Origin: Marinomonas sp. KMM3893
Lineage (GTDB): Bacteria > Pseudomonadota > Gammaproteobacteria > Pseudomonadales > Marinomonadaceae
Assembly: GCF_004352855.1 (NCBI RefSeq)
Contig: NZ_SJSC01000004.1
Span: 186,001-250,000 of the forward strand
DNA: 64,000 bases
Reading direction: 5' to 3'
Each line of letters opens with the position of its first letter. Position 1 is the first letter of the stretch. This document shows, one piece after another, positions 59,922-63,877 of the stretch. Position numbers and translations under genes: made by a program. The notes under the pieces are model-generated. The model searched no databases. It saw only the letters and a program-made list of their open reading frames with translations, and had not been told where the DNA came from.

Positions 59922-59941
59922 TACTGTATGAATGTACAGTA
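59922..59941 (+). promoter_or_regulatory. LexA box (SOS box) of umuDC
   Basis: TA-CTGT-N8-ACAG-TA, a perfect match to the gammaproteobacterial SOS box, 14 bases before the umuD start. It predicts repression by LexA and induction by DNA damage. Confidence 0.95.
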
Positions 59942-59955
59942 TTTTGGGTGTGGCT

Positions 59956-60402
59956 ATGCGAGTGACTTATCTTGGGGTGTCTCAGTCCCAATCTTTTATT
60001 GATGCGAACAGTGTGCGGATTCCGCTTTATGTGGAGTCTGTGTCGGCGGGCTTTCCTTCGCCTGCTCAGGATTTTGTTGAAAAATCCTTAGACTTAAATG
60101 AGTTCTGTGTGGCGCATCCGATGGCGACCTTTTACGTGCGCGCTCAGGGGGATTCGATGATCGATGCGGGCATTCATTCGGGCGATGTCTTGGTCGTTGA
60201 TCGATCATTAACGGCGCGCCATGGGGACATTGTGATCGCCTGCATTCATGGGGAAATGACGGTGAAGATGCTGGAACTTAACCCCAATGTGCTGCTTCGC
60301 CCAAAGAACAAAGCTTATAAAGCGATTCATATCACCGAAGAGTCTGAGTTGGAAATCTTTGGTGTGGTCGTGGGGGTTGTCCGTAGGTACGAGCGCGGTT
60401 GA
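59956..60402 (+). CDS. umuD: UmuD-like S24 peptidase (translesion synthesis, cleavable type)
   Basis: A 148-aa self-cleaving subunit of DNA polymerase V. The catalytic Ser is in QGDSMIDAG and the Lys in MTVKMLEL. The cleavage site is kept: Ala-Gly in VSAGFPSPAQD, equivalent to Cys24-Gly25 of E. coli UmuD. The chosen ATG gives MRVTYLGVSQS; a start eight codons earlier would lie inside the LexA box. The stop overlaps the umuC start (TGATG). Confidence 0.93.
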   Translation: MRVTYLGVSQSQSFIDANSVRIPLYVESVSAGFPSPAQDFVEKSLDLNEFCVAHPMATFYVRAQGDSMIDAGIHSGDVLVVDRSLTARHGDIVIACIHGEMTVKMLELNPNVLLRPKNKAYKAIHITEESELEIFGVVVGVVRRYERG

Positions 60403-61673
60403 TGAAGACAGCATTTGCCTTGGTCGATTGCAATAATTTCTATGCGAGTTGCGAAAAGTTGTTCCGACCAGATTTAAAACACACGCCTGTTGTGGTGTTA
60501 TCGAATAACGATGGCTGTATTGTCGCGCGTTCCAAAGAGGTAAAGGCGCTGGGTATTAAGATGGGCGTACCGATGTTTCAGGTTCAGGACGAGATAAGAC
60601 AGCACGGTATTGTGTGCTTCTCGTCCAATTATGCGCTGTATGCGGATATGTCGAATCGGGTGATGACGATTCTTGAAGAGGAAGCCCCCCGGCTTGAGGT
60701 GTATTCCATCGATGAAGCCTTTATGGATTTATCCGGTGTTGATCATGTAGTGGGTTTGCTGGAATTTGGTAAGCAAGTAAAAGCCAAGGTTGATCAATGG
60801 ACGGGCATTACGGTAGGAGTAGGTATTGCCCCCACCAAAACGTTGGCGAAGTTGGCAAATCATGCGGCGAAGAAATACCCAGCAACCGGCTCGTTGGTGG
60901 ATTTGATGGACCCAGAAAGACAAAAACGTTTATTGGCACTTGTTGAAGTAAGCGATGTTTGGGGCGTTGGCCGTCGTACCACGGCAAAACTAAAAGCCAG
61001 AGGCGTTCATACGGCGTTAGATCTTGCCAATGCAGACCCGAAAACCATCCGAAGTGAGTTTTCTGTGGTATTGGAGCGGACCATTCGAGAGTTGAATGGG
61101 GTGTCATGTTTGGATTTGGAATTGGTCAGGCCAACAAAGCAGCAAATCATTTGCAGTCGGTCGTTTGGTCATAAAGTGACAGACAAGCGAGAGCTGCGGG
61201 AAGCGGTCGCCAAATACACAACCAGAGCCGCCGAGAAACTACGCGGAGAAAAGCGACTTTGCCGTGTGGTGAGTGTGTTCGTTCGTACCAGCCCTTTTAT
61301 TCCAAACGAACCGCAATACTCGAAAACACTCTCTGCAGAGCTGCCCAACCCAACCGACGACACGCGAGACTTATTAGAAGTAGCAAATGAGTTGTTTAAG
61401 CGAATTTATCGTGCTGGTTTCCGCTACGCCAAAGGCGGCGTAATGCTCGCTGACTTCTACGAACAGGGCGCCTTCCAACAAGATTTATTTCGAGCAGACA
61501 ATCCAAAAATCAACTCTAAAGCCTTAATGAGTGTCGTGGACAAAATCAACCACAGCGGTCTCGGCAACGTCTTCTTCGCCTCGCAAGGTGTGTCACCACA
61601 ATGGGCAATGAAACGAGAACACCTATCGCCAGGGTACACGACCAGGTGGGATGAGCTGCCCAAGGTTTGGTGA
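60402..61673 (+). CDS. umuC: DNA polymerase V catalytic subunit UmuC
   Basis: Y-family translesion polymerase of 423 aa. The palm motif VDCNNFYASCEKLF at the N-terminus gives the first catalytic Asp; the second acidic pair is in EVYSIDEAFMDLSG. The helix-hairpin-helix WGVGRRTTAKLKARG and the little-finger domain follow. Its ATG overlaps the umuD stop, so the pair is translated together under one LexA box. The length is typical. Confidence 0.95.
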   Translation: MKTAFALVDCNNFYASCEKLFRPDLKHTPVVVLSNNDGCIVARSKEVKALGIKMGVPMFQVQDEIRQHGIVCFSSNYALYADMSNRVMTILEEEAPRLEVYSIDEAFMDLSGVDHVVGLLEFGKQVKAKVDQWTGITVGVGIAPTKTLAKLANHAAKKYPATGSLVDLMDPERQKRLLALVEVSDVWGVGRRTTAKLKARGVHTALDLANADPKTIRSEFSVVLERTIRELNGVSCLDLELVRPTKQQIICSRSFGHKVTDKRELREAVAKYTTRAAEKLRGEKRLCRVVSVFVRTSPFIPNEPQYSKTLSAELPNPTDDTRDLLEVANELFKRIYRAGFRYAKGGVMLADFYEQGAFQQDLFRADNPKINSKALMSVVDKINHSGLGNVFFASQGVSPQWAMKREHLSPGYTTRWDELPKVW

Positions 61674-62009: not shown

Positions 62010-62590
62010 TCAAGAAATACAAGCCTTTAACTATAAAATATCGCTTTCATAAGAAGAGAACGACGTTTGTTAATCTCGCGTGTAGGGCTTGCGAGTCTGG
62101 GCGATGGTCGTTAAGGTTTATTCAGGTCATTAGCGTTATGGTTGTCGGCTACACGAGTCATTGAAGCTTCGCCAAGTCAGGGACTTTGTCGGTTCTAGGC
62201 CTTACTAAAACGGCGCTTGTTTGTTTTTAGGGTGGGGGGCTTATGAAGCCCCTGTCAGATGAAATGCTATAAATGGCTTGGCTTGGCTTGGCTTGGTTTG
62301 AGTTGGTCGGTGTTGGGTTTGGTGGCTGAGGATTTTTCAAGCTTTATCATGAACTTGGCGCTGATACCGGAAGATTACAGGGTGTTGGTATGGTGTTCAA
62401 AAAAACGTTTAATCACCTTTGGCTCATCTTTAGAGATGTGTCATGTCTGCTTTAGAGAGGGTTTCTGTGGTTAGGGGGTCAAGATCATCCTTTTGAAAGT
62501 ATTGATCACAGATAAAGCGCACTGATAATCTAGTTTCTAGAAATGAAGCTGATTAGAATGATTTATGACAATACGTTCATGGAGGAGTAT
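62010..62590. other. Gene-poor stretch between umuDC region and lipoprotein gene
   Basis: About 580 bases with no supported gene. It contains a seven-bp hairpin GGGGCTT-ATG-AAGCCCC (62236-62252) without a T-run and a short GGCTT repeat. A 71-codon frame at 62259-62474 is built on that repeat, has no ribosome site, and is rejected. Confidence 0.55.
62275..62299. repeat. Short tandem repeat (GGCTT)4
   Basis: Four perfect GGCTT units and a fifth changed to GGTTT. Repeats of this type can vary in copy number. Confidence 0.8.
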
Positions 62591-62853: not shown

Positions 62854-63270
62854 ATGAGTTATCCTATTAAGGCGTTGATGTGTTGTTTGGTGGCGCTCTT
62901 GTTATCGGGTTGCGCTGCTGACTCAGAGCGAATGCTTGGTAAAGCGCGTACGCCAGTTGCGGTGTCTGAGGTTCAGGTTTTGATGCAGCCGCCCAGTGTT
63001 GCCTATGAAGCAATTGCGCAAATAAAGGTAAGAGTGCAAGAAGGGTTTGATCAGCAGGCTCGTTTGAAAAATACCATAGCTGTGTTGGTCGCCAAAGCGG
63101 CTAAGTTGGGGGCGAATGGCGTGATAGTGGCGGATACCAAAGAGTTTAATGCGGCTTACAATCGCATCAGCACAGGCACGGCTTTTACTGAGGGTGCTTC
63201 ATTTACTTTGTCGCCAAGCGCTTTTAGTCGGGTAAAGCTAAGTGCCACCGCCATTTACTTGGCTCCGTAG
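62854..63270 (+). CDS. Small lipoprotein
   Basis: A 138-aa lipoprotein with signal and lipobox LLSGC (Cys20) followed by Ala, so outer-membrane sorting is expected. The mature part reads YEAIAQIKVRVQEGFDQQAR and LVAKAAKLGANGVIVADTKE, a pattern reminiscent of YbjQ/RcsF-type small alpha-beta domains. This is a resemblance by eye only. It is monocistronic, just before the second umuD-like gene. Confidence 0.75.
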   Translation: MSYPIKALMCCLVALLLSGCAADSERMLGKARTPVAVSEVQVLMQPPSVAYEAIAQIKVRVQEGFDQQARLKNTIAVLVAKAAKLGANGVIVADTKEFNAAYNRISTGTAFTEGASFTLSPSAFSRVKLSATAIYLAP

Positions 63271-63395: not shown

Positions 63396-63415
63396 TACTG
63401 TATACATATACAGTC
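63396..63415 (+). promoter_or_regulatory. LexA box of the solitary umuD-like gene
   Basis: TA-CTGT-N8-ACAG-TC, differing from the ideal SOS box only in the last base, 12 bases before the start codon. It predicts control by LexA or a related repressor. Confidence 0.93.
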
Positions 63416-63427
63416 AGGAATGTTTTT

Positions 63428-63877
63428 ATGCGAGTTTCCTATCTCGGCGTTGCCAAATCGGCTTCTTTTATTGCTGCCAACAGCGTTCAAATCCCTCTTT
63501 ATGAAGCGTCAGAGTCTACTGTGCTGCCTTCCTCTGATCAGGATGCGAAGCAACCGGCGTTTGATTTGAATACGCTTTCTATCCAGCACCCAGCCGCGAC
63601 CTTTTTTGTCAGAGCGCATGGTGATTCCATGGTTGAGGCGGGCATTTATGCGGGCGATGTATTGGTAGCGGATAAGTCGCTCAATGCTCGTCACGGCGAT
63701 GTTGTGATAACGTACATTGATGGCGAAATGACGGTGAAAATATTGGAATTAAAGCCTGATGTCGTGCTTCGCCCTAAAAATAAAGCCTATGCGGCGATGC
63801 CAGTAACAACAGAGCCTAATGTGGAGATTTTTGGGGTGGTTATTAGTGTTATCCGTCAATTAGCGCGAGCCGAATAA
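63428..63877 (+). CDS. Solitary UmuD-like protein lacking the usual cleavage site
   Basis: A 149-aa paralog of the UmuD at 59956, aligned along its whole length. The peptidase Ser (HGDSMVEAG) and Lys (MTVKILEL) are kept. The Ala-Gly pair of the cleavage site is replaced: SAGFPSPAQD of the first copy corresponds to STVLPSSDQD here. So it may not self-process at that point, or may be cleaved elsewhere. No umuC follows; the next element is a terminator of an opposing gene. It could act as an antagonist of UmuD or as a regulator, as UmuD-like proteins do in Acinetobacter. That role is inference. Confidence 0.85.
   Translation: MRVSYLGVAKSASFIAANSVQIPLYEASESTVLPSSDQDAKQPAFDLNTLSIQHPAATFFVRAHGDSMVEAGIYAGDVLVADKSLNARHGDVVITYIDGEMTVKILELKPDVVLRPKNKAYAAMPVTTEPNVEIFGVVISVIRQLARAE

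Follow-up and report, generated by a model that had tools for sequence, protein, structure and literature searches.

UmuD serves as a timer of mutagenesis, the full-length protein acting in an early checkpoint and the cleaved form in DNA polymerase V (pol V). In E. coli its N-terminal arm is engaged by ClpXP, Lon, the beta clamp and Pol III alpha. Why, then, would a Marinomonas genome maintain, beside a complete umuDC operon, a second umuD that has its own, predicted damage-responsive promoter but neither a umuC partner nor the bond at which UmuD is cut? Both loci lie in the window, by which we mean the whole stretch of 64,000 nucleotides that was analysed (Table 1).

Table 1. Features of the window that bear on the solitary umuD gene
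Feature	Position	Strand	Basis
LexA box of the complete umuDC operon	59922..59941	+	matrix score 28.1
Canonical UmuD (SAGFPSP and dyad present), proposed partner or target	59956..60402	+	translation
UmuC, 423 aa, intact	60402..61673	+	ORF list, genus search
Small lipoprotein gene just upstream of the orphan, no Pfam match	62854..63270	+	homolog and Pfam searches
LexA (SOS) box TACTGTATACATATACAGTC, 12-14 bp ahead of the start codon	63396..63415	+	pattern match and matrix of 55 umuDC promoters
Leader with Shine-Dalgarno-like AGGA directly behind the box	63416..63427	+	read from sequence
Solitary UmuD paralog (orphan), 149 aa plus stop, S24/UmuD fold	63428..63877	+	translation, profile and structure matches
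N-terminal arm, residues 1-25, whole; QIPLY (residues 21-25) where E. coli has TFPLF	63428..63502	+	alignment
Altered cleavage loop, EASESTVLPSSDQDAKQPA instead of VDSVSAGFPSPAQDFVEKS, Thr-Val for Ala-Gly	63503..63559	+	7/12 canonical-invariant loop sites changed
Ser67 codon (GDSM), dyad, kept	63626..63628	+	alignment with E. coli UmuD Ser60
Lys104 codon (TVK), dyad, kept	63737..63739	+	alignment with E. coli UmuD Lys97

The product of the solitary gene is 62% identical across 135 aa to the UmuD of the neighbouring operon, and its predicted fold, given this identity, is certainly that of UmuD. It matches the S24/UmuD domain at 3e-20 (Pfam PF00717, 72.4 bits, cutoff 23.3), the NCBIfam model PRK10276 at 121.7 bits (cutoff 110) and the structure of UmuD' (PDB 1umu) at 2e-32; its match to the LexA family reaches 68.7 bits (TIGR00498, cutoff 110.95), with no helix-turn-helix (HTH). 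Four of the relatives discussed below (L038, L049, L050, L176) fall under the PRK10276 cutoff, at 69-100 bits. The arm of about 24-31 residues that in UmuD precedes the cleavage site is present (aligned arm MRVSYLGVAKSASFIAANSVQIPLYEASES). A reading made from the sequence only had described the gene as a umuD without a umuC partner, in which AGFPSP is replaced by TVLPSS and the Ser-Lys dyad is retained, and this description holds: by translation and alignment STVLPSS stands in place of SAGFPSP (A31T, G32V, F33L and P36S), leaving neither an Ala-Gly nor a Cys-Gly bond, both residues of the dyad are intact, and no UmuC match occurs within 8 kb downstream. Changes at sites invariant among canonical UmuDs affect 7/12 positions of the loop, 0/6 of the arm and 9/49 of the body. 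The gene is a UmuD relative that has departed from the family in its cleavage site and in its missing umuC partner, and has kept the rest; cleavage is predicted to be abolished.

The LexA box that had been ascribed to the gene was also recovered. A LexA-type palindrome, CTGTATACATATACAG, lies at 63398-63413, 14 bp ahead of the ATG and followed by AGGA. With a 20-bp matrix trained on 55 umuDC promoters of the genus (training range 22.6-34.1 bits), the box at 63396-63415 scores 22.2 bits, against a 99.9th percentile of 5.0 and a maximum of 17.5 bits for shuffled upstream sequence, and a scan of the 64-kb window returned two sites only, at 59922 and 63396. The significance of the box derives from its matrix score and position, as the plain 16-mer pattern taken alone is not significant (2 seen versus 0.72 expected in 64 kb). 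The predicted LexA site stands at the promoter, as is expected of a member of the LexA regulon. Similarity at the DNA level to the umuD of the umuDC operon (67% over 470 bp) covers the LexA box as well as the coding sequence, so the promoter was copied together with the gene.

Four places in the host genome (3.75 Mb) are matched by the orphan: the gene itself, the umuD of the window, a umuD at C10:46311, and LexA. The third belongs to a second umuDC operon (C10:46311-48024; L034:3312-5028), whose UmuD retains SAGFPSP and a LexA box and whose umuC is divided between two overlapping frames (residues 1-289 and 282-423), likely by a frameshift. The closest relatives of the lipoprotein encoded just upstream of the orphan are found in G025 and G044, with G045 next; in G044 (43%) and G045 (39%) its homologs likewise stand directly upstream of an orphan UmuD, and in other species they stand away from any orphan umuD. 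Between umuC and the lipoprotein gene there is a short, non-coding tandem TTGGC repeat at 62270-62300 (ggcttggcttggcttggtttg). A mobile origin of the window copy was considered and rejected: searches of phages (44 records) and plasmids gave only matches below 60% identity, and viral contigs gave three matches, all distant. In view of these distant phage, plasmid and viral matches the copy is most likely home-grown. A separate search of genome contigs, among which records close to the host genome may be missing, returned distant UmuDs only.

The case is far from singular within the genus. Across 49 genomes, in which nearly every UmuD-like gene was read with its neighbours, all 58 distinct UmuC-partnered UmuDs keep AGFPSP, compared with a loss of the cleavage site in 15 of the 22 distinct solitary ones (Fisher p = 3e-11, although the rows are phylogenetically related and the number of loss events is for this reason the safer figure). 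Twelve genomes, each of a different species, carry an orphan upstream of yaeQ, mostly after a divergent pair consisting of a CI-like S24 repressor and a YdaS/Cro-like regulator. This pair, the CI-like member of which combines an S24 peptidase with an HTH, keeps a fixed chromosomal place in many members of the genus, whether or not an orphan accompanies it (L036-L044, L103-L119), and looks like a domesticated phage switch. The window gene was considered as a member of the yaeQ locus and rejected, its host genome having no orphan there (L100). A second orphan of G046 lies on the margin of the yaeQ stretch, and G011 has one at another place; a close ortholog of the window gene was not found among the 49 genomes. 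At the yaeQ locus the dyad lysine is mostly Met and the serine often Pro, L039_3094 being the sole keeper of the dyad. LexA boxes of 22-31 bits precede 11 of the 15 distinct orphans and are lost or weak in L039_3094, L050, L051 and L072. Six solitary UmuDs in which both AGFPSP and a LexA box persist (L008, L022, L030, L045, L046 and L047) are possible intermediates on the way from a umuDC operon to a cleavage-dead orphan, and the likely order of loss is umuC, then the cleavage site, then the dyad, with most LexA boxes kept. Orphans of this kind are present in three genomes without UmuC (G009, G018 and G031), in one of which, G018, the loss of UmuC is probably recent.

How often this has happened was addressed with trees built with the cleavage loop and the catalytic columns masked. 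The G011 orphan is sister to one canonical UmuD (97/86) and the second orphan of G046 to another (99/90). Orphans of the yaeQ locus cluster together (89/48); the window gene falls beside them, in an ambiguous placement (86/74) and on a long terminal branch (0.35-0.46). A single origin of all 14 cleavage-dead copies is rejected (p-AU 0.027); a common origin of the window gene and the yaeQ group is compatible with the data (p-AU 0.473). The topology thus implies that the cleavage site was lost independently at least three times in the genus, each time in a solitary copy: in G011, in G046 and in the yaeQ-locus lineage.

The window copy might be a recently freed duplicate that is heading for loss and has no present function. 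The genus has many solitary copies, among them truncated or broken ones (G026 C9, G023 C11:253495, G038 C1:3319788), and the long terminal branch of the window gene is in keeping with such a fate. Against it, the reading frame, the box and the dyad are all intact after a dS of 1.7 or more, while the open frame of a simulated neutral copy survives 0.5 substitutions per site in 1.4% of runs, and the changes are concentrated in the loop rather than in the arm or body. Compared with canonical UmuDs the gene shows a dN of 0.24-0.29 and a dN/dS of 0.10-0.15 with dS saturated, a ratio that exceeds that of canonical pairs. Taken together, these figures make decay unlikely for the window gene, with some probability left to a slow form of it by the raised dN/dS and the missing close ortholog. 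Among its relatives the pattern is plainer: close pairs of yaeQ-locus orphans have dN/dS values of 0.07-0.14, near those of canonical genes, and this clade stays under strong purifying selection despite the loss of the dyad. By region, pN/pS in orphans versus canonical UmuDs is 0.09 versus 0.21 in the arm, 0.59 versus 0.13 in the cleavage loop, 0.36 versus 0.14 in the Ser segment, 0.18 versus 0.08 in the Lys segment, and 0.04 versus 0.26 in the C-terminal dimer strand, which indicates that cleavage was given up and the arm and dimer surface were preserved. The window copy seems to be at an early stage of this same course.

The trend reaches outside the genus. Among 215 sampled genomes of the order, the partnered UmuDs that were read keep the Gly cleavage bond, and solitary UmuDs without it were found in L159 (G173), L160 and L161. 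The first of these (L159:2434-2760) has a LexA box, the cleavage segment SAFGDPFP and a Ser to Pro change (GEPM); its genome has further umuDC operons, and it is probably another independent case. In a second, distant genus of the order (that of G157; L176-L181) all six species have a solitary orphan without the cleavage site, in which Ala replaces Ser and Arg replaces Lys. A LexA box can be recognised at -32/-33 in four of the six, and dN/dS is 0.03-0.05 in the two close pairs; none of the six has UmuC, a DinB-like match being the only one. The general proposition of the sequence-only reading, a damage-controlled UmuD without the canonical cleavage site, is therefore strengthened, since beyond the LexA box and the STVLPSS segment of the window gene, similar genes recur and are under selection.

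The same comparison bears on whether the window protein might still be an enzyme, with Ser67 and Lys104 cutting the arm of a partner UmuD in trans, or with the orphan itself being cut at an unusual bond, in support of pol V. The dyad is kept here, and in E. coli the active sites of UmuD are able to cut the partner's arm in trans (PMC5342242). The relatives under selection, however, repeatedly lost the dyad once their cleavage site had gone (lysine to M, V, Q/H or R; serine to P, T or A), which argues that catalysis is not what they were kept for, and the invariance of Ala-Gly in the partnered UmuDs of the genus, along with the Gly bond in those read across the order, is a second point against this reading. 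A catalytic role is accordingly very unlikely.

A different kind of function is suggested by the second genus, where the arm carries GPQLNLPL[FY] in five species and QLTLPLF in the sixth. This is a consensus hexameric clamp motif, clear in this genus only and close to the PAQLSLPLYL of Hda, which binds with a KD of 0.38 uM (PMC11139829). The arm of an orphan homodimer might thus bind the beta clamp or Pol III alpha (or DinB) independently of UmuC, and slow synthesis or steer polymerase choice; the fixation and strong constraint of dyad-less orphans throughout a genus without UmuC favour such a role. The window protein has QIPLY at the place of the clamp motif, and set against Q-aliphatic-x-L/M-[x]-F/L it offers the Q, the aliphatic residue and L at position 4, but Tyr at position 5, which is not the preferred residue; some canonical UmuDs are alike. 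Within the genus no orphan-specific clamp motif was found, orphans and canonical UmuDs both having mostly RIPLY, and a faster rate of orphan evolution in two genomes without UmuC (G031 and G009; Tajima p 0.001-0.055) also counts against this reading. For the window gene, a purely UmuC-independent action on the replisome is possible, if rather improbable.

The reading that we favour, with a probability of roughly one half, is that the window gene encodes a UmuD that is made on damage, stays full-length and acts as a brake, through mixed dimers with UmuD and UmuD' and/or through competition at the clamp; its escape from cleavage, its dimer partner and the direction of its effect are the parts that we infer. 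The gene is a umuD duplicate, copied with its promoter and SOS box, that has no umuC partner and lacks the Ala-Gly site. Upon DNA damage and removal of LexA, the orphan would be made beside UmuD and UmuC and, not being convertible to UmuD' by RecA filaments, would remain arm-bearing. Its C-terminal strand would allow it to dimerise, also with UmuD and UmuD'; in such mixed dimers it would keep UmuC inactive, and its permanent arm would hand a UmuD' partner to proteolysis and/or compete at the clamp, so that mutagenic synthesis would be delayed or shut off. The E. coli system offers precedents for these steps: UmuD and UmuD' preferentially form heterodimers, in which the UmuD arm brings the partner to ClpXP, and of the two forms only full-length UmuD separates Pol III alpha from the beta clamp (PMC5342242); a UmuD that cannot be cleaved keeps UmuC at the membrane (PMC4552617), and UmuD2C is a checkpoint form (PMC4045847).

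Mixed dimers are the simplest route in the window genome, which has an intact umuDC. They had been proposed from the outset as a means of holding back pol V, and this proposal is consistent with the retained arm and dimer strand, with subunit exchange and ClpXP delivery in E. coli, and with the faster evolution of the orphan in two genomes without UmuC. It does not stand in full, as similar orphans persist in three UmuC-less genomes of the genus and in the six species of the second genus, which argues that pol V is not the sole target of such proteins. The Ser-Lys dyad still present in the window protein likewise counts against a pure dimer partner, a role for which it is not needed.

More broadly, and tentatively, at odds somewhat short of even, locked UmuDs may constitute a repeatedly evolved, separate class of damage-checkpoint proteins that are SOS-induced, have lost self-cleavage (and usually the dyad) and keep the arm and dimer surface, poisoning UmuD' and pol V in some lineages and acting on the clamp through a Hda-like motif in others that have no pol V. 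If so, a natural, SOS-made UmuD fixed at full length, and conserved although its protease activity is gone, would show that selection can act on a function of the checkpoint state itself, apart from the activation of pol V. The orphans would offer naturally separated alleles with which to probe full-length UmuD at the clamp, and the UmuC-less second genus would be the cleanest setting for studying the role of UmuD in the absence of pol V. The recurrence of locked copies, their solitary state, the damage control that most retain and the selection that preserves them point to a hitherto unrecognised, putative brake on error-prone DNA copying.

How does such a protein compare with known systems? 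The open-access literature on solitary, orphan or non-cleavable UmuD (subscription papers being mostly outside the scope of the search) yielded engineered alleles, UmuDAb and HumD, and no natural, full-length, non-cleavable UmuD under SOS control; the novelty of a natural locked UmuD is provisional. With the UmuD of pol V (PRK10276; PDB 1umu, 1i4v, 8gmt) the orphan shares the S24 fold, the arm, the dyad, the dimer strand and the LexA box, and differs from it in having Thr-Val in place of Ala-Gly or Cys-Gly and in lacking a umuC partner. UmuDAb of Acinetobacter (PMC4807011, PMC11332147) is likewise a UmuD relative acting outside a umuDC operon, and as a UmuD turned repressor (PMC4807011) it lends some plausibility to the second function that the sequence-only reading had offered, that of a transcription regulator. 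UmuDAb, however, requires an N-terminal DNA-binding extension and replaces LexA; the window protein has the 149 aa of an ordinary UmuD, starts in alignment with the canonical protein, matches no HTH family and coexists with LexA in its genome, and a regulatory role is hardly tenable. HumD of phage P1 (NF051876) resembles the orphan in being a solitary UmuD relative whose arm is not removed, but it is encoded already short, in the activating, UmuD'-like form; the orphan, with its whole arm, represents the opposite state, and its score against the HumD profile is 53.0 bits (cutoff 120). The likeness to Hda, an AAA+ protein that controls DnaA, is one of motif only, the orphans of the second genus having GPQLNLPLFIEG in the flexible N-terminal arm and the window protein the weaker QIPLY. 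The nearest counterparts in behaviour would be the engineered UmuD alleles K97A, S60A, C24D/G25D and UmuD3A (cited in PMC4552617, PMC5342242 and PMC11139829), which are full-length and unprocessable; these are laboratory alleles, whereas the window orphan is a natural, damage-induced second copy standing beside a normal UmuD.
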